This document shows, piece by piece, positions 3,103 through 18,928 of a stretch of 33,274 bases of DNA. Under the pieces are notes generated by a model, which made no database searches, was not told where the DNA came from, and worked only from the letters and a program-made list of their open reading frames with translations. Positions within the stretch are counted from its first letter, which is position 1. Each line of letters begins with the position of its first letter. Made by a program: the position numbers and the translations under genes. Source of the DNA: Bacteroidales bacterium (GTDB taxonomy: Bacteria > Bacteroidota > Bacteroidia > Bacteroidales > UBA3824); contig JAKSLV010000019.1 of assembly GCA_024401025.1 (NCBI GenBank), positions 1 through 33,274 of the forward strand, given 5' to 3'.

Positions 3103-4947
3103 TTATCCAACGTACACATTCTCTTTCGGGTACATGTAGTTGAGCGATTTTACCGGTGTGAAGAATGCCTTGGCCAATGTGAGCGCGCCCACACGGCCTA
3201 TGAACATCAGCAGCGACAGCAGTATGCGGCTGGCGGGGCTAAGCGAGTCGGTGATGCCCATGCTGAGTCCGCAGGTGCAGTAGGCCGACGTGGTTTCGAA
3301 AAGCATCTCCGCCATTCCAGCGTTGCTGTTTTCCGATTCGAATATGCTCATCAGGAATGTGCCGCCGGCTATGAATATCAGTGATATTATGATTACCGCA
3401 AAGGCCAGGCGCACGGTGCGGTTGGCTATCTTGCGGCGGAAAATCTCTATCCTGTCCTTGCCCTGGAGTATGCTGATGATATCCAGCACCGCTATGCCGA
3501 ATGTGGTGGTTTTGATGCCGCCTCCGGTGGATATCGGCGATGCTCCAATCCACATCTGCACTATTATGAACACTATGGTGGCCATGTGCATTGTGTTGAT
3601 TCCTATGTCGTTGAATCCGGCGCTTCGTGGCATTACGGCGTAGTAGAACGAATCCACCAGCTTGTGCCAGAATCCGTCGTGGGCCAGCAGCGTGTTGTTC
3701 CATTCCAGAGCCATGAACATCAGTGTGCCTATCACGAAGATTATGGTGCTTACTATGGCGGCCAGCTTGGTGTTAACGTTTATGAGCCTGGGCTCGTGGA
3801 TGTAGCGCTTGTGGTCCCAGATTACGCGCTTCAGGTTCACCAGCTTGTGGTAGATGAAGTTCTGGAGGTTTATCAGTATCGGGAAACCCACGCCGCCCAG
3901 TATGGCCAGCACAGATATTATTATCTTCAGCGAATAGTTGTGGAAGAGCATATCGGCGCACATGCTGCCGGGTATGGTGGTGAATCCGGCGTTGCAGAAT
4001 GCTGATACTGCGTTATATATGGCAAAATATATGCGGTCGCTGGTGGTGGGGATCTCGGGGCCACATTCCACTGTGAAGAATATCGTTATGGCGCCGATAA
4101 TCTCGATGGTGAAGGTGTAGATTACGATGGTGAGGATAATCTTGAGCGTGCTGCCCATGCCCTCGGTGCCCACCATGTTGCCGAGCATGGCGTCGGCCTT
4201 GAAGGAGCTTGTGTCCTTGAAGAAATATGCTATGAAGCAGGTGAAGGTCATTACTCCCAGGCCGCCTATCTGCAAGAGGAAGAGCAGTATGCCCTGACCC
4301 AGAGGTGTGAGCATCTCGCCCGAATCCACGCACTGCAATCCCGTGATGCTTACGGCGCTGGTGGCCATGAAGAGGCAGTCAACGAAGGGCAGCTTGGTAA
4401 CTGCGGCGTTGGGCAGCTTCAGCAATCCGGCGCCTATGAATATTATCACTATGAAGCTGAGCGCAAAGAGCGATTCTGGCTTTATCTTGGCCACAAGCAC
4501 CTTGAAGGTGTTTTTGCTGACCTCGATGAAGAATGTGGACAATATTATAAGGTACACCAGATCGGGGCTGGTGAGAAACCGGTATACAATGCCGTGATAA
4601 TCAACGGTATCGAATACAAATTTTACATTGAAGAGGTAGAATATCAGGAACACGAAAAGCAGAATCCTGATTACCAGCATGTATATCTTCTGACCCTTGC
4701 CGCGGTTTTTCAGGATGCTGGGCATCTTGGTGCTGAAGAAGATGAAATACAGGAACAGGTATGCGTAATACACATTGTGGAGCCAGCGGGTATCGGTGTT
4801 GTCGCTCAGGAAACCTATCTCGTACACCGCCGCAAAAAATATCACAATGGTGGTGTAGAACAATACATTGTCGATGATTGTCCTAAGCCTGGAGCTCTGA
4901 TACTTCGAAAGCCCGTTTTTATATATGTTTTTTAGGTATTCCAGCAC
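3103..4947 (-). CDS. trkH: TrkH/KtrB family K+ (or Na+) transporter with long N-terminal membrane extension
   Basis: This is the inner-membrane pore subunit for potassium uptake (614 residues). The four pore repeats of the superfamily are visible by their filter loops: SITGLQCVDSG (about 200-210), FCNAGFTTIPG (about 325), PRSAGFNDIG (about 440) and CTCGLSMG (about 560). The conserved STGGGIKTTT segment lies between the third and fourth loops. The first 150 residues hold about four extra hydrophobic helices that E. coli TrkH lacks, which accounts for the length. trkA follows 27 bp downstream and encodes the gating partner. A thioredoxin-fold protein gene precedes it by 33 bp. Whether the ion is K+ or Na+ cannot be decided from sequence; K+ is the usual substrate. 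Confidence 0.93.
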   Translation of the reverse strand: MLEYLKNIYKNGLSKYQSSRLRTIIDNVLFYTTIVIFFAAVYEIGFLSDNTDTRWLHNVYYAYLFLYFIFFSTKMPSILKNRGKGQKIYMLVIRILLFVFLIFYLFNVKFVFDTVDYHGIVYRFLTSPDLVYLIILSTFFIEVSKNTFKVLVAKIKPESLFALSFIVIIFIGAGLLKLPNAAVTKLPFVDCLFMATSAVSITGLQCVDSGEMLTPLGQGILLFLLQIGGLGVMTFTCFIAYFFKDTSSFKADAMLGNMVGTEGMGSTLKIILTIVIYTFTIEIIGAITIFFTVECGPEIPTTSDRIYFAIYNAVSAFCNAGFTTIPGSMCADMLFHNYSLKIIISVLAILGGVGFPILINLQNFIYHKLVNLKRVIWDHKRYIHEPRLINVNTKLAAIVSTIIFVIGTLMFMALEWNNTLLAHDGFWHKLVDSFYYAVMPRSAGFNDIGINTMHMATIVFIIVQMWIGASPISTGGGIKTTTFGIAVLDIISILQGKDRIEIFRRKIANRTVRLAFAVIIISLIFIAGGTFLMSIFESENSNAGMAEMLFETTSAYCTCGLSMGITDSLSPASRILLSLLMFIGRVGALTLAKAFFTPVKSLNYMYPKENVYVG

Positions 4948-11175: not shown

Positions 11176-11210
11176 CGAAAAGCCGCATGTATGTGCGGCT
11201 TTTCGTTTCT
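11176..11210. terminator. Terminator between converging DPM1-like gene and ATPase 1
   Basis: The 12 bp perfect stem CGAAAAGCCGCA/TGCGGCTTTTCG has a six-base loop and a TTTCT tail on the plus strand. It ends one base before the stop codon of the converging ATPase gene, so it may act in both directions, though the T-rich tail is better on the plus strand. Confidence 0.8.
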
Positions 11211-12477
11211 AATCTTTCAGGCAGCCTATCGGAACTACCATAACATTGTCATCGCGCATATATGCGTATTTGCCTACTCCTGTAAGGACCATCATAAAAG
11301 ATGGCTGTTTCATTTTGTCGGTATCAATCTTGCTTGCAAGTGTTTTCAATGTCTGGGCACCTTCCTCTATGAGAGAGTCGCCGCCAAGTTTTATTTCTAT
11401 CAATCCGTAACTGCCATTCCTTAAATGTATTACAGCGTCGCACTCCAAGCCGTTTCGGTCTCGGAAATGGTAGATCTGTCCGTCGAGAGCATCAGCGTAA
11501 ACTCTTAGGTCTCTTATGCAAAGGGTCTCGAACATTAGGCCCATTGTATTCAGGTCGTTTATCAAGTCGTTGGGTCCCAAGCCCATAGCCGCCGTTCCGA
11601 TTGATGGGTCCACAAAATATCTGGTGTCGGCTGTACGGATGGCGGATTTGGAGCGGAGGTTGGGATTCCAAGCAGGAGAGTCTTCCACTACGAAAATTTT
11701 CTTGAGTGCCGATATATACGAAGATATCGTTTTGGTATCGGACTGGCTGTCGTTGGTTGACATATCTGCTGCAATGGTTCCAATGGTGGCCTGCGAGCCT
11801 TGGTTTCTGGCGTATGAACGCATCAGGAGTTTTACACGCTCAGGATTGCGTTGGATATTGTCGGTTCTTGAAATGTCGTATCTCACCACGGCGTCGAAAT
11901 AGTCTTTGGCCTGGTCGAGGGCTATGTCGTCATCGAAGAAGATGGAGCCCGGCCAACCACCACGGCAGATGAGGAATGCGAGTTTGTTGATGTCTATGTT
12001 GCTGATTCCTGATGCTTTTTTTCCTGCGAACAAGTCTCTGATGCTTACAGTTCCATTCGACTCACCCGATTCAAAAAGACTCATAGGCCGCATCGTCAGC
12101 CAAGAGAATCTGCCCGTTCCGCTGTGGCTGATGTCTTTGGTGTCGGGAGGCACTGCCGAACCCGTAAGGATAAACTGCCCCGGCTCACCACGCTGGTCAA
12201 CTTCGTAGCGCACCGCATCCCATATTTTGGGAGCAAGTTGCCATTCGTCGATAAGTCTTGGATTGTCGCCGGCTAAAAGGATTGCAGGATCCATCTCCGC
12301 AAGACGGATGTTCTGGTTTTTCTCGGCCGGGTTGTCCATAAGCAAGACGCTCTTTGACTGATGGCGTGCTGTGGTGGTTTTTCCGCACCATTTCGGCCCT
12401 TCTATCAAAACAGCACCCTTGCCGGCTAATTTTCGTTTTAAGATATTGTCTACTATTCTGTTACGGTATTCCTTCAT
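11209..12477 (-). CDS. AAA+ ATPase with DUF4143 and nuclease-like C-terminus (COG1373), copy 1
   Basis: This 422-residue protein has an AAA_14 ATPase domain: Walker A GPKWCGKT (27-34), a Walker B-like RLIDEWQ (74-80) and the sensor region TGSAVPP. The family-typical GRFSWLTMRPMSLFESGE leads into DUF4143. The C-terminus shows a PD-(D/E)xK-like pattern: ECDAV (Asp347), then LIEIKLG (Glu361, Lys363). Proteins of this family are common in Bacteroidetes and archaea and their function is not established. I chose the ATG at 12477 rather than a TTG at 12525, because the predicted promoter (-7 box 12502-12510) lies between them. Directly upstream is a five-unit 23 bp tandem array that fills the space up to the PARG gene. 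A paralogous gene with its own, different array lies at 17315-18661. Confidence 0.9.
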   Translation of the reverse strand: MKEYRNRIVDNILKRKLAGKGAVLIEGPKWCGKTTTARHQSKSVLLMDNPAEKNQNIRLAEMDPAILLAGDNPRLIDEWQLAPKIWDAVRYEVDQRGEPGQFILTGSAVPPDTKDISHSGTGRFSWLTMRPMSLFESGESNGTVSIRDLFAGKKASGISNIDINKLAFLICRGGWPGSIFFDDDIALDQAKDYFDAVVRYDISRTDNIQRNPERVKLLMRSYARNQGSQATIGTIAADMSTNDSQSDTKTISSYISALKKIFVVEDSPAWNPNLRSKSAIRTADTRYFVDPSIGTAAMGLGPNDLINDLNTMGLMFETLCIRDLRVYADALDGQIYHFRDRNGLECDAVIHLRNGSYGLIEIKLGGDSLIEEGAQTLKTLASKIDTDKMKQPSFMMVLTGVGKYAYMRDDNVMVVPIGCLKD

Positions 12478-12501
12478 AGCAAATATTAATAGTTCAACAC
12501 T

Positions 12502-12533
12502 GCAAAAATAACAAAATTCCGTCAAATGACGAA
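12502..12533 (-). promoter_or_regulatory. Promoter of ATPase 1, with its -33 region inside the tandem array
   Basis: On the minus strand TATTTTTGC (12502-12510) matches TAnnTTTG exactly and lies 25 bp ahead of the ATG. The -33 position, 19 bp further, reads TTCG (12530-12533) and falls within the first array unit. Occupancy of that unit would block the promoter or replace its weak -33 contact. Confidence 0.6.
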
Positions 12534-12627
12534 ATTTTATTGGGTCATTTGACGGAATTTTATTGGAGCGTTTGACGGAATTTTATTGGAGCATTTGACG
12601 GAAAATCATTGGGGCGTTTGACGGAAA
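12519..12627. repeat. Tandem operator-like array 1: five units at exact 23 bp spacing
   Basis: The motif TGACGG (TGACGA in the first copy) starts at 12527, 12550, 12573, 12596 and 12619, each step exactly 23 bp. Units 1-3 share TGACG, A/G, AATTTTATTGG; unit 4 is slightly diverged and unit 5 is cut short by the stop codon of the PARG gene (TCA at 12628-12630 on the plus strand). Next to the promoter the first unit forms the palindrome CGTCAAATGACG (12520-12531). The array occupies the whole intergenic space. There are no unique spacers, so this is not a CRISPR. See findings. Confidence 0.9.
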
Positions 12628-13458
12628 TCACCTCCCCATCACCTTCTTGAACACCTGATAGTTTTCTGTCTCGAAATCTCCGCAGTAGATGGCGAACTCT
12701 ATTGTGCGGAAGGCGTGGAGATAGTCGGGGAGGAGGGCCTTGTAGCTCTTGGCCACGAGCTCGGGATTGTTCTCGAATGCGCCGCATCCGAAAGCTCCTA
12801 TTACAACGGTGTCGGCCTCCTGACTGATGGCGGCATCCAATATGCGGGCTCCGCGCTTGTAGTGCAATATGCTCATTATCTGAGAGAAATCCTCTTTGTT
12901 GCGGATTTCGTATGGGCAGCCTCTTAGGTCGGGTGCTGCGGCTGTAATCACGTCAACATCAAACCAATCCTTCTCGTCCATCATCTCGGGCTTCAGGGTG
13001 TCGCTCTTGAATACTGTTACACCCGGCGAGTAGATTAGGTCGTTGTTGGCCATTGGGTTTCCTTCCTTGCGGTGTGGATTGTAGAACCTGTTGCGGCAGT
13101 CCTGAGTGGCAATGCAGGGATAAAGTGTCGAGATTCTGCAAAGGCATTCCTCCTGGGCGGTGCAGCCCTGAACAACGCCGCCTCCGGGTTCAAAGGAGTT
13201 GGCGAAGTTTAGCACGCATACCTTCCTGCCGATGGCGGTGTACTGGCGCGCTGCCTCCATGCTGCGGAACTTCGATACCCTTACTGTGGCCTCCTCCTCA
13301 TAGATGGCGTATTTGTCGGCATCGAACTGGAGTACGTCGCCCTCAAGGATTATCTTCTGACCCTTGAGGGTTTCCTCTATCGACCTCTTCAGGCTTTGAT
13401 TCGATTCGCACTTCTCCATCGAGTCGCGGAAGATTTTCTGATTTTCTAGCATTGACAT
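12628..13458 (-). CDS. Bacterial-type poly(ADP-ribose) glycohydrolase (TIGR02452/PARG family)
   Basis: This 276-residue protein carries the PARG catalytic signature GGG-x7-QEE (GGGVVQGCTAQEE, 92-104), followed by the family-typical CRISTLYPC segment, an aspartate-rich APDLRGC motif and the macrodomain-like VVIGAFGCGAFENNP (about 215-230). Bacterial-type PARG removes ADP-ribose polymers by acting on the terminal ribose-ribose bond; related proteins may act on other ADP-ribose adducts. I see no ADP-ribosyltransferase in the window. The start may be 13458 or the second Met at 13452. A consensus promoter lies 37 bp upstream. The stop codon abuts the 23 bp tandem array in front of ATPase 1, which is on the same strand. 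Confidence 0.9.
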   Translation of the reverse strand: MSMLENQKIFRDSMEKCESNQSLKRSIEETLKGQKIILEGDVLQFDADKYAIYEEEATVRVSKFRSMEAARQYTAIGRKVCVLNFANSFEPGGGVVQGCTAQEECLCRISTLYPCIATQDCRNRFYNPHRKEGNPMANNDLIYSPGVTVFKSDTLKPEMMDEKDWFDVDVITAAAPDLRGCPYEIRNKEDFSQIMSILHYKRGARILDAAISQEADTVVIGAFGCGAFENNPELVAKSYKALLPDYLHAFRTIEFAIYCGDFETENYQVFKKVMGR

Positions 13459-13494
13459 TTTTTCTCTGTTTTTGGGTTAATATGTAATTTATAC

Positions 13495-13527
13495 GCAAAA
13501 ATAAAGCCTTTTATTGTAAAAAGCAAG
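13495..13527 (-). promoter_or_regulatory. Promoter of the PARG gene
   Basis: On the minus strand CTTG (13524-13527), then 20 bp, then TATTTTTGC (13495-13503), an exact TAnnTTTG box. It lies 36 bp ahead of the start codon. Confidence 0.6.
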
Positions 13528-13547
13528 AAAAAAATGCAATTTTTTTT

Positions 13548-14786
13548 TCACCTCACCACCTTTGTCATCACCAGTCTGTGGCCGCGGTCCTTCATGAGCG
13601 TGGTGTACACGGCAATGAGGTACTCGTTCTGGGTGTTGAAATGGCTTCCGTGGTGATAATCCACAAAATTGCCGTCCTTGTCCCTTATCAGAAACATGTA
13701 GTTGTGCAGGCCCTGCTTTATGGTTGCAGTAACCTCCCATTGCTGATGCTCCTCATTGTAAATCAGGCGGCTATGGCTGTCGCATTGCCAGTTTGTGATG
13801 GCGCCGTAGAGGAAAATCTCGTGGTTGGTGAATCTGTCGTACTTCAGGGCGAAAGTGGCGTCCACATAGTCGCTCTCAAGGTCAAGGTTGAATGCGCGGT
13901 CGTTCTTCACGTAATATTGTCCGTTGATGTCGCCGCGGGTCTGGTAGGCGTTGTTGTATACGGCCGGAGTCATCACGTAGCGGTATCGCCCGGGCGTGTA
14001 GCTGATCTCGTCCACGCCCAGCGGACGGAAATGCACGTCCTTGGCATCCAGGAAATCAAACTCGTTGCCGCCGGGAAAAACGTTGCCGCCCTCGTTTTTG
14101 TGGTATTGAATCTCGTTGCCCAGATATCCGCTTATGTCCAGTTTTCTCCTAGAGCTGATGTCGCCGTTTTGCATGGCGTACACCTTTATATATCTGTCGG
14201 GGTTCGACACCCTCATCCTTGAATTGTCCACTGATACTTCCAGTTGCTGATACTGCATCTGATATTCAGGCAGAAACGGCTGCATCACCTTGCACCTTAT
14301 CTTGCCGCCCTCGTCCTCGTCGTACAGCATGAAATACTTTGTAAGCAGCGGAGTATCAGGGTCGTCGTCGTCATATATAGTTATCATGTAGTTGCCTGAT
14401 ATCGTGGGCTGTACGTCGCGGTTTGGGATGCTTAGGGTGTAGTGGCTGAACGTGGCCAGGGTATTGAACGAATTCTCGTAGTCCTGAAGCGGCCTGTCGT
14501 TGAACCCGTCGGCAAACTCGCTGAAATCCAGGTCGTCGGGCTGAAAATCGCTGTCGCAGTGGCATATCCTGTATGCCAGCGACGAGTAGTTGTCGTCCAG
14601 AATGTCGAACGTCAGGGTCACCTGGTCGCCCAGCCTCGCCATCGGATAGCCGAAATCGGCGCCCTCGGGCAGTATGCGCGCCGTCTTTATGTTGTTGGCT
14701 GATGCTTCTGCTATTATGTCCTGGGCGGCTGATGCGCAGGGGATGCACAGCATCAGGCCCGATAGAAATACGGAAAATCTGCTCAT
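13548..14786 (-). CDS. DUF5103 / type 9 secretion system plug-like protein
   Basis: This 412-residue exported protein has a signal peptide ending near CASA-AQ. The sequence matches my knowledge of the DUF5103 family, now named T9SS plug: an N-terminal immunoglobulin-like domain with RIxHCDxDF-type residues (YRICHCDSDFQPDDL, about 71-85), YTLSIPN, and SGNYMITIYDDDDPD (about 128-142). The C-terminal domain resembles a carbohydrate-binding or E-set fold (FLYGAITNWQ, about 322-331, then YMFLIRD). In Flavobacterium johnsoniae the plug protein closes the periplasmic side of the SprA translocon; the function here is inferred by family. No other T9SS gene is in the window. A putative porin gene lies upstream on the same strand, 156 bp away, with a hairpin between. 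Confidence 0.88.
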   Translation of the reverse strand: MSRFSVFLSGLMLCIPCASAAQDIIAEASANNIKTARILPEGADFGYPMARLGDQVTLTFDILDDNYSSLAYRICHCDSDFQPDDLDFSEFADGFNDRPLQDYENSFNTLATFSHYTLSIPNRDVQPTISGNYMITIYDDDDPDTPLLTKYFMLYDEDEGGKIRCKVMQPFLPEYQMQYQQLEVSVDNSRMRVSNPDRYIKVYAMQNGDISSRRKLDISGYLGNEIQYHKNEGGNVFPGGNEFDFLDAKDVHFRPLGVDEISYTPGRYRYVMTPAVYNNAYQTRGDINGQYYVKNDRAFNLDLESDYVDATFALKYDRFTNHEIFLYGAITNWQCDSHSRLIYNEEHQQWEVTATIKQGLHNYMFLIRDKDGNFVDYHHGSHFNTQNEYLIAVYTTLMKDRGHRLVMTKVVR

Positions 14787-14806
14787 GGTGTTGATGTGTA
14801 AATAAT

Positions 14807-14835
14807 AAAGGAGACCATTTGGTGTGGCCTCCTTT
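14807..14835 (-). terminator. Hairpin between the porin and the plug gene
   Basis: AAAGGAG (14807-14813) pairs with CTCCTTT (14829-14835) around a 15-base loop that can extend the stem through ACCA/TGG. On the minus strand it is followed by ATTATTT, so it may be a weak terminator of the porin transcript. The rest of the 156 bp gap (to 14942) shows nothing clear. Confidence 0.4.
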
Positions 14836-14942
14836 GCGGTTAATTCTGGGATAGGTTTTTGGTTTTAAAGAAAGTTCCCTCGTGTTTTCTGATTATATAA
14901 CACACGGATCGGTGCCTACCCTAATGCAAAATGCAAATTTTT

Positions 14943-16862
14943 TTAGTCGCCGAATCTCCACAGCAGGCCAAGCATGAAGTGGAAATCCTGCATCGGGTAG
15001 CAGTCGGTGGCCGCATACCATTCCTTGTTTTTCACCACATTGATGTGCTCCCACTTGAAGAACATCAGCACTCCGTGGATCTTTATGTTTACGAACGCGT
15101 TCATTATCGGGTAGTTGCCCGATTTCATCCTGTCGTTCTGATAAAACAGCGATGTGGCCGGCGAGTATCCCAGGGCGTTGTATTCGCCTGAGAACCTCAT
15201 CTCGGCGCCTATCTGTGTAAGCAGCACGTTTTTCACAAGATAAAACTGTAGATACGTTGCGTTGTAGAGCGCGTAGCTTGGCAGGCAGAGCTTGCCGTCG
15301 TCGTTGGCCTTCTGGATTGTAACCCTGTTCGCCATTCCCAGAGGTCCGGCGTGGAGGTCGTGCATCAGGCTCAGGCTAAACACGTTGAGCACTCCGCTCA
15401 TCTGCTGAGGCACTGCCTTTCGGTTTATGTACACATAATCGTTTATCAGGTAATAGGCACCGCCCACCTTCAGGTTCCATCTTGGCAGGCCCACCTCGCC
15501 GCCCACGCGTATGGTCTTTGTTTTGCTGAAGCTGTTGTCCCACTGATAGTTGTTGGAATAATAGCGCTTCTCGAAATACGTAGGCTCCTCGTTCCTGAAA
15601 TCCACCGACGCCTTCATCTCGTAGTTTACGGTGTCGCTCTCGCCCTTGTAGATCCTGAAGCCCAGGTTTCCGTTTACAATCATGTCGCCGCTCTTGTATC
15701 CCGATATGTATTGGCGGTATTTTCCGCTCAGTATCAGGTTCTTGGTCTTGTTTTTGCTGATGCCGCCCTCAAGATACGTGCCCGTATATTTGTGGTCGCT
15801 GTTGTCGGTGAGGTAGTTTCCGAAATTGTAGTAGAGCTCGTGCTCCAGGCCTATGGCGCCCCTTAGCTCGGGAGTGTACTGGTTCTCGCAGATTTTCAGG
15901 TGGAAACGGTTGCTGAGTTTGTGGTAGAACAGCGAGTCGAAGGTGGAGTATTGGCTCCTGAAATAGTCGTCGTAGAATTTCTTCTTAATCTCGGTGTCCT
16001 CGTAGGTCCTGAAAATCTTGTTGTACTGAAACGCGTATCCCACCGCCAGCCTTGGAGTGTAGATCTCGGTTCGGGTGCTGTCGTTTATTATCTTGAAGTC
16101 GGTGGATCCCACAGTGTATTCGCCCACAAGATTCCACGAGCGCATTCCCCAGTTGCTGAATGGGCTCTCAAGCCTGGTGGTGAATCTGTTGTTCTTGATT
16201 TCCACCGTATCTATGATGCCGCCGTTTTCCTCCACCGACAGCTTGTTGAAGTTGTAGAAGAAATGCACCTGCAGATGCTTTCCTGTGTAGCTCATCTGTG
16301 GCGTAAAGGTTACGTCCCTCATGTGCTGGTGGCTGTATCGTCCCTTGGAGCTCACCATGTTGATGTTGAAGCCCCAGTTGAATTTCTTGTTTACATTCTG
16401 TGTGTGGGTGAAATTCACCAGCTGACCGTTTCTGGCCTTGGGAGTGCAGGCATAGTAAAGCCATGTGTAAGGATAGTTTACCTGATAGAACTTTGTGTTC
16501 TCGGCGGTGGCCAGATAGTCGTTCATATAGTCGAGGAAAAACACGGGCGATTTTTTGGCCTTCATCCTGTCGTCGAAGATGTTGGACAGGTATGGCGAGC
16601 CCATGTTTCCGAGGTTGTTTACTGATATCGACTTCTGGTCGTTCTTGTCGTAGACCTGAAAAAGGTGAAGCGCCGTGTCCTTCTCCACGCTGTATTCCTT
16701 GGTGGAATAGTCCTCGTCTAGCTGCCAGATGCTTGCCTTTTTGGGGTATTCGGTTTTCTTTTTGTCCTTGTTGTCGTTTTTTTTCTTCTGCTGACCCATG
16801 GCCTGTCCTGTAATAGCACACAGTAATAGACTAATAGTCAGATATTTAATCAAGTTTGTCAT
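14943..16862 (-). CDS. Putative outer-membrane porin (Porin_10 family)
   Basis: This 639-residue protein has a signal peptide (cleavage near AMG-QQ) and a Lys/Asp-rich stretch just after it. The rest is a long run of alternating amphipathic strands rich in Tyr, Phe and Asn with Asp/Asn/Gly turns, ending in LLWRFGD, the pattern of a large beta barrel. The order of motifs (WQLDEDYSTKEYS near 46, PYTWLYYACTPKARNGQLVNFTHTQNVNKKFNWG near 130-165) agrees with the Bacteroidetes 'putative porin' family. It would sit in the outer membrane; the substrate is unknown. A consensus promoter lies 30 bp upstream. The T9SS plug-like gene follows on the same strand. Confidence 0.87.
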   Translation of the reverse strand: MTNLIKYLTISLLLCAITGQAMGQQKKKNDNKDKKKTEYPKKASIWQLDEDYSTKEYSVEKDTALHLFQVYDKNDQKSISVNNLGNMGSPYLSNIFDDRMKAKKSPVFFLDYMNDYLATAENTKFYQVNYPYTWLYYACTPKARNGQLVNFTHTQNVNKKFNWGFNINMVSSKGRYSHQHMRDVTFTPQMSYTGKHLQVHFFYNFNKLSVEENGGIIDTVEIKNNRFTTRLESPFSNWGMRSWNLVGEYTVGSTDFKIINDSTRTEIYTPRLAVGYAFQYNKIFRTYEDTEIKKKFYDDYFRSQYSTFDSLFYHKLSNRFHLKICENQYTPELRGAIGLEHELYYNFGNYLTDNSDHKYTGTYLEGGISKNKTKNLILSGKYRQYISGYKSGDMIVNGNLGFRIYKGESDTVNYEMKASVDFRNEEPTYFEKRYYSNNYQWDNSFSKTKTIRVGGEVGLPRWNLKVGGAYYLINDYVYINRKAVPQQMSGVLNVFSLSLMHDLHAGPLGMANRVTIQKANDDGKLCLPSYALYNATYLQFYLVKNVLLTQIGAEMRFSGEYNALGYSPATSLFYQNDRMKSGNYPIMNAFVNIKIHGVLMFFKWEHINVVKNKEWYAATDCYPMQDFHFMLGLLWRFGD

Positions 16863-16891
16863 TATGCCGCAATATTGTTATGTTTTGCACC

Positions 16892-16924
16892 GCAAAATTA
16901 GTAAACTCCTCAACACCTACCAAA
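16892..16924 (-). promoter_or_regulatory. Consensus promoter of the porin gene
   Basis: On the minus strand TTTG (16921-16924), 20 bp, then TAATTTTGC (16892-16900): exact matches to both Bacteroidetes promoter boxes, 29 bp ahead of the ATG. Confidence 0.75.
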
Positions 16925-16971
16925 TTTTTAACGAATAATAATATAATGCGAATTCTACGAAATGAAAGTTT

Positions 16972-17036
16972 CGCACAGATTACACAGATTACACAGATTT
17001 TATTATTTATAATGAACAATCTGCGTGTATGAAAAC
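16972..17036. repeat. Extragenic repeat of CACAGATTA units with partial inverted arm
   Basis: Between the porin promoter and tRNA-His lie three direct 9 bp units (CACAGATTA twice, then CACAGATTT, from 16974). A shorter, degenerate inverted arm follows at 17018-17036 (AATCTGCGTGTATGAAAAC). The left arm begins TTTCGCACAGA, like the element at 2286. The rest of the 330 bp gap 16863-17192 holds two promoters and AT-rich sequence, and no gene. Confidence 0.65.
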
Positions 17037-17129
17037 GTCAGCTCCGTATTGTAAACTATCCAAATATCAGTCTGCAATATATTGAGAAACATAATACTAA
17101 AAAAAAAATTAAAAAAACTTTCAAAAATA

Positions 17130-17162
17130 TTTGCACGAACCGAAAATTCGCCTTACCTTTGC
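17130..17162 (+). promoter_or_regulatory. Consensus promoter of tRNA-His
   Basis: TTTG (17130-17133), 20 bp, TACCTTTGC (17154-17162): both boxes match exactly. The mature tRNA starts 31 bp downstream. Confidence 0.8.
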
Positions 17163-17192
17163 AACGTCAAAAAAACAGAAATGTTAAGTACT

Positions 17193-17266
17193 GCCGAAGT
17201 AGCTCAGTTGGTTAGAGCATCGGATTGTGGATCCGAGGGTCATAGGTTCGAATCTTATCTTCGGTA
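17193..17266 (+). tRNA. tRNA-His (anticodon GTG)
   Basis: A complete cloverleaf of 74 nt can be folded: acceptor GCCGAAG/CTTCGGT, D arm GCTC/GAGC, anticodon stem TCGGA/TCCGA with loop TTGTGGA (anticodon GTG, histidine), five-base variable loop, and T arm ATAGG/CTTAT around TTCGAAT. CCA is not encoded. The base before position 1 is T and the discriminator is A, so the usual encoded G-1:C73 pair of bacterial tRNA-His is not seen, and position 1:72 is a G-T wobble. It has its own promoter and terminator. Confidence 0.96.
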
Positions 17267-17276
17267 CTTTTTAGGA

Positions 17277-17310
17277 ATGAGTTCTCAGAAATGAGAACTC
17301 ATTTTTTTTT
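17277..17310 (+). terminator. Rho-independent terminator after tRNA-His
   Basis: The 11 bp perfect stem ATGAGTTCTCA/TGAGAACTCAT with loop GAAA is followed by T8. It begins 10 bases after the tRNA and ends just before the stop codon of the converging ATPase gene. Confidence 0.93.
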
Positions 17311-17314
17311 GTCC

Positions 17315-18661
17315 CTATCCTGCCGCTTCTATTATCTTGTCGAGCATTCCGATGTAGTAGAATGGTACGTTTATAAGTCTGAAAGTCTTGCCTTGGTTGG
17401 TTGTAACCTCGTTTATGGAGTATTCTCCCGACCAGATTCTTATGGCAAGCTTGCTGGAGTTGTCGCTGTTGTCCATGAACGAATGTATGGATTTTAGGTG
17501 GGCGTTGGTGCCGGATTTCACCTCTATGGGGATTATCCTGGTGCCGTGCTGCCATACAAAGTCGGTTTCGGCGGTGGTGCCTTTCTTGTCGCGAACCCAG
17601 AAGTTAAGATTGTCCTTGTACAGCTTGTCATAAAGTGATATAAGCTCTTGAGCCACAACGTGCTCTGCGCTTCGGCCTCTCCATGTGTCGAGCAGTTCCT
17701 TGTTTTGCAGGAATTCTATTTGGATGTCGGCGCTGTAGTTTACAAGTCCCGTATCCACGAAAATTAGTTTGGGCGATCTTTTCAGTGCGGGTATGGCTGG
17801 GGCTGATGTTGCCGTTACGGGATAGCAGAGCCGTATTACGAAAGCCTTTTCAAGCACTTCCATGGCCTCGTGTATATCTGTTGACGAGTATCTGCTGTTG
17901 CCGAATCCGTTGAAGCAAATAGCCTCTCCGGCCGACATCCATCCTGTGTTGAGGATGTGGCGTATCACCTTGGCCTCGTTCTCGTTTTTGGCGTACTTCT
18001 CCACATCGTCCACATATCCGGTTATCAGCGATTTGTATATCGGGTTTATCTTTTGTATGTTTGACGATTCCTTGTATTTCTTCACCGCCTCGGGCATTCC
18101 GCCTATCAATGCGTATCTGTTGAAATGGTTTATCAATTCGTTGTGTATCAGGGTGTGGGCCGAAAGGTTCTTTATGCTGCTCACCCATGATTCGCCTTCC
18201 ATTACATTTATGTATTCCATAAACGAGAAAGGCCTCAGCTGCATGTATTCCACTCTTCCTACAGGAAACGATACGTGCTGCTTTATCAGACATTGTAGTC
18301 TAGATCCTGCTGATACTACGTAGAGATCAGGAATGTTCTCGTAGAAATACCTGAGCATTGCCACAGCCTTGGGTTCGTTCTGGATTTCGTCGATGAAGAG
18401 CAATGTTTGGGCAGGCTCTTGGCTGATATGTTTCTTCATGCAAAGAAATTCGTATATTTTCTTCGCATCGCTGAATCTGGTGAATATTTCGGCATCCTCT
18501 TTTTGCTCGAGGTTCAGGTAGATGTAATATTTGAATTCCTTGCTGAACTCGTCTACCAAAGTGGTTTTTCCTACCTGTCTTGCTCCCCTTATTACCATCG
18601 GTTTGTGGCTGAGGCTGCTTTTCCAGTCTTTAAGTTGCTGTATTGCTGTTCTGTAGTACAT
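17315..18661 (-). CDS. AAA+ ATPase with DUF4143 and nuclease-like C-terminus (COG1373), copy 2
   Basis: This 448-residue paralogue of the ATPase at 11209-12477 belongs to a more canonical branch. Walker A is GARQVGKT (26-33), Walker B TLLFIDEIQ (86-94), followed by VVSAGSRLQ and SFPVGRVEYMQLRPFSFMEY, the standard AAA_14-to-DUF4143 sequence. The C-terminus has the PD-(D/E)xK-like pattern TETDFVW (Asp367) and IPIEVKSG (Glu380, Lys382). The start at 18661 leads straight into the conserved YYRTAIQQLKDWKSS helix. A consensus -7 box lies 23 bp upstream, and a seven-unit 33 bp tandem array begins 12 bp behind that. The gene converges on tRNA-His. The cellular role of the family is not established; a toxin-like or self-regulating function is speculation. 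Confidence 0.93.
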   Translation of the reverse strand: MYYRTAIQQLKDWKSSLSHKPMVIRGARQVGKTTLVDEFSKEFKYYIYLNLEQKEDAEIFTRFSDAKKIYEFLCMKKHISQEPAQTLLFIDEIQNEPKAVAMLRYFYENIPDLYVVSAGSRLQCLIKQHVSFPVGRVEYMQLRPFSFMEYINVMEGESWVSSIKNLSAHTLIHNELINHFNRYALIGGMPEAVKKYKESSNIQKINPIYKSLITGYVDDVEKYAKNENEAKVIRHILNTGWMSAGEAICFNGFGNSRYSSTDIHEAMEVLEKAFVIRLCYPVTATSAPAIPALKRSPKLIFVDTGLVNYSADIQIEFLQNKELLDTWRGRSAEHVVAQELISLYDKLYKDNLNFWVRDKKGTTAETDFVWQHGTRIIPIEVKSGTNAHLKSIHSFMDNSDNSSKLAIRIWSGEYSINEVTTNQGKTFRLINVPFYYIGMLDKIIEAAG

Positions 18662-18683
18662 AATTTGCTGTTTTTTTCTTGTC

Positions 18684-18715
18684 GCAAAGTTATAAATAAT
18701 TTTCTAAAACATAGG
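18684..18715 (-). promoter_or_regulatory. Promoter of ATPase 2, with its -33 region inside the tandem array
   Basis: On the minus strand TAACTTTGC (18684-18692) is an exact -7 box, 23 bp ahead of the ATG. The -33 position, 19 bp further (18712-18715), reads CCTA rather than TTTG and lies within the conserved core of the first array unit, exactly as in ATPase 1. Confidence 0.65.
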
Positions 18716-18918
18716 TAACTTTCGTCAAAATTTCTTCTAAAACATAGGTAACTTTCCTCAAAATTACCTCTAAAACATAGGTAACTTTCCTCAATTTTTC
18801 CTCTAAAACATAGGTAACTTTCCTCAAATTTCTTCTAAAACATAGGTAACTTTCCTCAAAATTTCCTCTAAAACATAGGTAACTTTCATCAATTTTTCCT
18901 CTAAAACATAGGTAACTT
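18704..18918. repeat. Tandem operator-like array 2: seven identical 18 bp cores at 33 bp spacing
   Basis: The core CTAAAACATAGGTAACTT is identical in all seven copies, starting at 18704, 18737, 18770, 18803, 18835, 18868 and 18901. Steps are 33, 33, 33, 32, 33 and 33 bp. Between cores the sequence is AT-rich and varies (C/G/A at the base before TCAA, then A/T runs). The array lies between ATPase 2 and the SPOR-flotillin operon and fills most of the 378 bp gap. No unique spacers exist, so it is not a CRISPR. Core conservation with drifting spacers of fixed length points to protein-binding sites. See findings. Confidence 0.95.
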
Positions 18919-18928
18919 ATGGTGATGC

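Follow-up and report, generated by a model that had tools for sequence, protein, structure and literature searches.

Many genes for a widespread phage-defence candidate ATPase are coupled to private, phased repeat arrays that may serve as their own operators

Among iteron-controlled plasmids, replication initiators are autoregulated, and their genes are preceded by direct repeats whose phasing is close to whole helical turns; the C proteins of restriction-modification systems and the autorepressors of toxin-antitoxin modules are likewise self-made repressors acting on their own promoters. Here we describe an arrangement that recalls both: a 33,274-nt stretch of contig JAKSLV010000019.1 from a Bacteroidales bacterium (C101 of genome G000, assembly approximately 75% complete; the whole stretch is referred to as the window) carries two minus-strand ATPase genes, A and B, each preceded by a tandem array of direct repeats. 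The likeness to iteron initiators lies in phased direct repeats upstream of the gene and in a product that, we propose, binds DNA; unlike the initiators, the product has a nuclease-like part and up to 53 DUF4143 matches occur in one genome, and no replication-initiator domain is found among the Pfam matches of genes A and B at E ≤0.001. Compared to C proteins and toxin-antitoxin systems, a single protein would here be both regulator and putative effector, and the sites form direct-repeat arrays.

Genes A and B are most like the phage-defence candidate PDC-S01 (COG1373, AAA_14/DUF4143): both match PADLOC models for PDC-S01 (2.7e-62 for A, 6.1e-176 for B) and both Pfam domains above the curated cut-offs (for A, DUF4143 2.9e-31 and AAA_14 3.2e-14; the Pfam and PADLOC runs for A used 11209-12480, one codon longer). 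PDC-S01 is described as an ATPase fused to PD-(D/E)XK, with 9,986 archaeal and 29,494 bacterial instances, ranking fourth among defences across prokaryotes, where most such candidates await validation (PMC12988326); with 10,358 occurrences it is the most frequent individual locus in a rumen genome set (PMC13356809). The portions of PMC12988326 that describe it, so far as accessible, say nothing of a repeat array, a private promoter or autoregulation, and the literature searched – in which subscription papers and bioRxiv preprints are little covered – contains no description of these arrays. A sequence-only reading of the window had stated that no function was described for such arrays, which holds for that literature, although PADLOC does list the proteins as a defence candidate. 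The searches made found no description of the coupling between a PDC-S01-type gene and a private phased array, a coupling that is robust and widespread. Our best explanation, to which we assign a probability of about two in three, is a self-contained cassette in which the protein reads its own array and the gene is probably autorepressed.

The sequence-only reading had proposed that the two genes share one design – an array nearly invariant in spacing, its last unit over the -33 region, and an exact TAnnTTTG box 23-25 bp ahead of the ATG – and these features were recovered both by Tandem Repeats Finder (TRF) and from the sequence itself (Table 1). Gene A begins with the ATG at 12477 (the listed open reading frame (ORF) reaching 12525 has a TTG start) and is preceded by four direct units (12539-12557, 12562-12580, 12585-12603 and 12608-12626) at a constant 23 bp; the seven 17-bp cores of array B are spaced 33, 33, 33, 32, 33 and 33 bp apart. 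The -33 sequences, TTCG for A and CCTA for B, are both non-consensus (the promoter consensuses used are those of Bacteroidota, TAnnTTTG, and sigma-70), and the last 21-bp site starts 26 bp from the box of gene B. As claimed, no other gene of the window has such an array: TRF (score ≥30) lists no further repeat with a period of at least 20. Privacy extends to the genome, of which 2.84 Mb were searched. Unit B (up to two mismatches) occurs seven times, always inside array B, against one occurrence of the reversed control pattern; unit A (up to three mismatches) occurs five times at array A and once elsewhere with three mismatches, which is chance level because its reversed control gives two. Each unit is thus confined to its own array, that single match aside. 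The end of a microbial PARG-type gene (12628-13458) coincides exactly with the start of array A.

Table 1. Positions of the two genes, their arrays and associated elements in the window.
Feature	Position	Strand	Basis
Gene A: AAA_14 + DUF4143 protein, 422 aa, P-loop GPKWCGKT, 23-bp-array subfamily	11209..12477	-	
TAnnTTTG box of gene A, TATTTTTG, 25 nt ahead of ATG	12503..12510	-	sequence
Unit A in inverted orientation with 3 mismatches, beside promoter and covering -33 of gene A	12517..12535	+	
Array A: 23-bp units TTCCGTCAAAYGCYCCAATAAAA	12527..12628	-	TRF
Gene + array cassette between tRNA-His (17193-17267) and SPOR gene (19040)	17315..18918	.	
Gene B: AAA_14 + DUF4143 protein, 448 aa, P-loop GARQVGKT, 33-bp-array subfamily	17315..18661	-	
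Gene B residues 222-314, winged-helix-like, proposed array reader	17720..17998	-	
TAnnTTTG box of gene B, TAACTTTG, 23 nt ahead of ATG	18685..18692	-	sequence
Array B: seven units, core GTTACCTATGTTTTAGA, period 33 (once 32)	18703..18918	-	TRF

Arrays are far commoner at genes of this family than at others. The genome of the window has 14 matches to PF13635, corresponding to 12 intact genes and two C-terminal fragments; TRF reports an array ahead of 11 of the 12 intact AAA_14/DUF4143 genes, with a different unit at each, and at the twelfth, L001, the motif occurs four times, at intervals of 33, 66 and 33. (At L013 the TRF array spans -289 to -161 and is possibly a neighbour's; repeats are also visible closer to the gene.) Across 13 genomes of the genus, among them that of the window, DUF4143 matches number between 2 and 53 per genome, and a single array may have as many as eight units (L034). 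Over 40 stretches from the genus – with an upstream gap of at least 100 bp, a TRF score of at least 90 and a period of 31-35 bp, leaving out the window itself and control genes whose upstream region overlaps that of a family gene – an array precedes 31 of 47 family genes and 1 of 174 other genes (Fisher P = 7e-25); looser limits (score 80, period 18-70) give 37/47 and 8/174. This comparison replaced a first control (family genes 42/76; other genes 29/584, or 26/304 with a 100-bp gap) because many divergent neighbours counted there share the intergenic region of the family gene. Among 144 genus genes taken from the best-scoring matches listed, arrays precede 77 of 99 long and 14 of 19 short members. 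The repeat period follows the subfamily: all six GPKxCGKT members in this set (gene A's type) have arrays, every one of 23 bp. Repeats 51-52 bp long with inverted arms (GGGCGAAATCTA) lie ahead of other genes at L080 and L121.

The association extends well beyond the genus. From 80 named-genome and 17 viral-contig loci, 93 were used (four partial viral-contig matches, L224-L227, were excluded from the counts), 92 of them with sufficient upstream DNA. The best lag was exactly 33 bp at 48/92 family genes as against 17/337 other genes of the same loci, and z33 was at least 3 at 48/92 as against 6/337 (6/216 with a 100-bp gap), some of the control genes being possibly unrecognised family members. 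TRF (score ≥60) reports an array at 43 of the 92, including members from Spirochaetales, Acidobacteriota, Cloacimonadota and viral contigs, and two relatives of gene A from spirochaetes, with P-loops GPKWCGKT and GCKWCGKT, have arrays of 23 bp. In 12 non-Bacteroidota genomes that contain some of these loci, where 66 family genes were scored (a few already in the cross-phylum set), the lag test (32-34) detects 22 of 43 long and 3 of 23 short genes. Several counts weigh against an obligate tie between gene and array. TRF arrays were found at 17/43 long and 4/23 short genes of these same 12 genomes, so many are without, and at none of the long genes of two genomes (0/6 in G060, 0/8 in G063); no array was seen at the family gene of Segatella copri; 20 stretches from other families of the phylum gave 3/23 family genes vs 0/90 others; and of the GPRQxGK members among the best-scoring genus matches listed, 10 of 20 have an array and the remainder show none by these tests, and the subfamily has no lag in common. 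The trait is widespread, not universal. By eye, a gene B relative (48.6%) on a scaffold recorded as bacteriophage (L343) has four units approximately 33 bp apart, and a family gene on a Bacteroides thetaiotaomicron plasmid (L342) has two similar upstream sites 66 bp apart.

What the array does is most likely self-repression, and the main ground for this is that two promoter types appear, from sequence comparison, to be fitted to the same site. In Bacteroidota, TAnnTTTG begins 24-28 bp past a site start in 11 of the 27 upstreams that have a site. In non-Bacteroidota, the -35 hexamer TTGACT falls at site offset 5, with a -10 element at N16-18 in the linker, in 9 of 18 upstreams (one of the 18, L158, is of an unnamed phylum and is not among the nine); the same sigma-70 test at 25 other site offsets found no gene at any of them. 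Operator-like sites therefore occupy a set place over the promoter in gene B and in part of its subfamily. Three points count against this interpretation: TAnnTTTG lies off the preferred offset in 16 of the 27 Bacteroidota upstreams; the motif itself resembles a -35 hexamer at offset 5, so that this match is partly built in and only the -10 element is independent; and, by eye, four of the six genus arrays that belong to gene A's type (four of the five others, leaving gene A aside; two of the four are close relatives) stop upstream of the promoter. The claim that the unit covers the promoter thus stands for gene B's subfamily in the proportions given, and not for most arrays of gene A's type, where activation is possible. 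A competing reading, the strongest one though unlikely, is that the protein binds the array but the array mainly activates or stores, serving as a platform on which the ATPase-nuclease is kept or primed and repressing little or not at all. Besides the arrays that stop short of the promoter, it would accommodate the non-consensus -33 sequences of the window, as at activator-dependent promoters, and arrays of up to eight units; the -35 hexamer contained within the site in half of the non-Bacteroidota upstreams is a better fit to exclusion of the polymerase.

Array and gene behave as one cassette. Gene B and its array are missing between tRNA-His and the SPOR gene in all six relatives that keep the porin-tRNA-SPOR order (seven further stretches uninformative, one too short). 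Among the 30 most similar protein pairs (at least 80% identity; many genes recur), DNA homology comprises array and ORF only in 22; of the remainder, four have both flanks in common, three the 5' flank and one a displaced downstream flank, and in two of the three 5'-flank pairs the homology runs into the array of a divergent neighbour. With one ORF plus array, the homology block of the 22 pairs contains no partner antitoxin gene, which sets the cassette apart from two-gene toxin-antitoxin systems. Direct repeats of at least 14 bp flank the gene at 7 of 139 loci, against 0.2 expected from shuffled pairs. They measure 14-23 bp (L003, L002, L327, L040, L022, L277 and L121); some resemble hairpins or terminators, one consists of A and T only, and some are possibly array units. 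Target-site duplication was considered and set aside: the excess is confined to few loci and the length is not fixed, so no transposase-like mechanism is claimed. These boundaries, the empty sites and the flanking repeats are nevertheless what would be expected if the array were the end of a mobile cassette and served its insertion or copying in a homing-like manner, with the nuclease-like domain as effector. We consider this improbable: the array is one-sided, target duplications of fixed length are lacking, mobility has no need of the promoter geometry, and passive transfer would leave the same boundaries. Other rearrangements were seen at family loci. At L279 (G000:C179), L008, L009 and L013, two truncated C-terminal copies with an identical peptide stretch in common flank an intact DUF4143 gene in inverted orientation, as if by past recombination; L293 has, past position 4851 and directly after the DUF4143 stop codon, approximately 1 kb extra with an apparent gene, absent from L306, which shares sequence beyond. 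A short tandem repeat (CACAGATTA, 2.9 copies, 16974-16999) lies between the porin gene and tRNA-His in the window.

Unit and protein change together, as the sequence-only reading had anticipated. For 77 long genus genes with arrays, counting a unit as shared at a score of at least 16, the unit is common to 37 of 40 protein pairs with at least 75% identity and to 9 of 60 pairs at 55-65%. The three exceptions among the closer pairs are L293/L306, L293/L327 and L280/L116 (score 15); in the first two, TRF appears to have picked the array of a divergent neighbour. The motif of gene B's subfamily, estimated as TTaCCcTnAcTTTGTnACAAA, was tested on held-out genes, the sites having first been aligned with all genes: 41 of 49 held-out upstreams have at least one site and 34 at least two, as against 4 and 0 for the reversed sequence. 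The opposite strand gives at least one site in 22/49 and at least two in 9/49 because the right half of the motif is nearly palindromic. Of the intervals between successive sites, 70/84 are exactly 33 bp, and one motif holds, as judged by these matches, across phyla. Cores are more conserved than linkers (difference 0.20; 0.11 once positions are shuffled), the difference exceeding the shuffled mean plus two standard deviations in 41 of 74 genus arrays; this test presumes an exact period and misplaces the core of gene B because one spacing of array B is 32. In both gene B and its nearest relative, L131, the motif includes CCTATG and the presumed recognition helix has H264, a residue absent from every other one of the 40 rows. 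Two observations temper this picture: the gene pairs share ancestry and are not independent, and L134 has CCTATG in one unit without H264.

These data bear on the two weakest alternatives. That the arrays are sites for a host factor (a nucleoid protein or global regulator) rather than for the encoded protein would suit their AT-richness and location at promoters; it is rejected as very improbable on the grounds that paralogues of one genome differ in unit, that both window units are private and that the gene B motif tracks the protein across phyla. Least probable of all are neutral repeats from slippage, which the near-identity of copies within one array would suggest and which enrichment, near-constant period and cores common to orthologues contradict.

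The array had also been suggested to keep paralogues apart, a role for which the support is suggestive only. Of 237 same-genome pairs none has proteins at least 65% identical, where 3.7 are expected (P = 0.019), a deficit that draft assembly could cause; three pairs have a unit score of at least 16, where 5.0 are expected (P = 0.25).

Which part of the protein might read the array? The sequence-only reading favoured the nuclease-like C-terminus; the winged-helix-like region appears likelier, and the covariation tests are weak and partly contradictory. The AlphaFold2 model of gene B (mean predicted local distance difference test (pLDDT) 94.6) comprises AAA+, winged-helix-like and PD-(D/E)XK-like parts. 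In the predicted model residues 1-312 match the archaeal AAA+ ATPases 2QEN and 2FNA (SSO1545) and CED-4-like proteins, and the STAND/CED-4-like comparison places an AAA+ fold in the protein; the range aligned to 2QEN/2FNA stops before the C-terminal nuclease-like part, and no mention of arrays was seen for these two ATPases. Taken alone, residues 222-314 give winged-helix matches, many to repressors (ArsR, MarR and CodY types), all weak and none at E ≤0.001. In the C-terminal domain D367, E380 and K382 are invariant and E365 nearly so among 68 sequences; the acidic residues and ExK of a PD-(D/E)XK active site are thus present, and there is a weak profile match to Cas4 (4r5q, E = 0.0035). A regional regression for the array reader gave 0.43 for the AAA part, 0.29 for the winged helix, 0.20 for the lid and -0.02 for the nuclease-like part, with a bootstrap probability of 0.92 that the winged helix exceeds the nuclease-like part; of the top 20 residue-base pairs by mutual information, nine lie in the winged helix. 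Against the winged helix, the top 100 pairs include 44 in the nuclease-like part and 22 in the winged helix, and the mean best z (3.29 and 3.39, respectively) does not single it out.

Under the explanation that we favor, a cassette consists of a private direct-repeat array plus one gene for a PDC-S01-type AAA+ ATPase with winged-helix-like and PD-(D/E)XK-like parts. The protein would bind its own array, probably via the winged helix, as an ATP-controlled oligomer, with binding units at intervals of approximately three helical turns (for gene A's subfamily, two). Where site and promoter overlap at the preferred offset, as in gene B's subfamily, binding would most likely exclude RNA polymerase; the gene would thus repress itself and the nuclease would remain scarce until something draws the protein off. 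Since unit and protein change together, paralogues in one genome need not silence each other.

If mobile single-gene defence cassettes use evolving private operator arrays as identity codes, with the array doubling as sensor – an extension that we regard as doubtful – then a resident protein would silence an incoming cassette of the same code (incompatibility), different codes would coexist, and stripping the oligomer from the array would switch the cassette on. For the family at large, the array gives a molecular handle on an abundant defence candidate, in the form of predicted sites, a candidate DNA-reading domain and a putative regulatory circuit. With as many as 53 DUF4143 matches per genome, it would also furnish a natural collection of protein-operator pairs in which recognition-code divergence could be studied. 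Were the identity codes real, one genome could hold dozens of insulated, self-silenced ATPase-nucleases.

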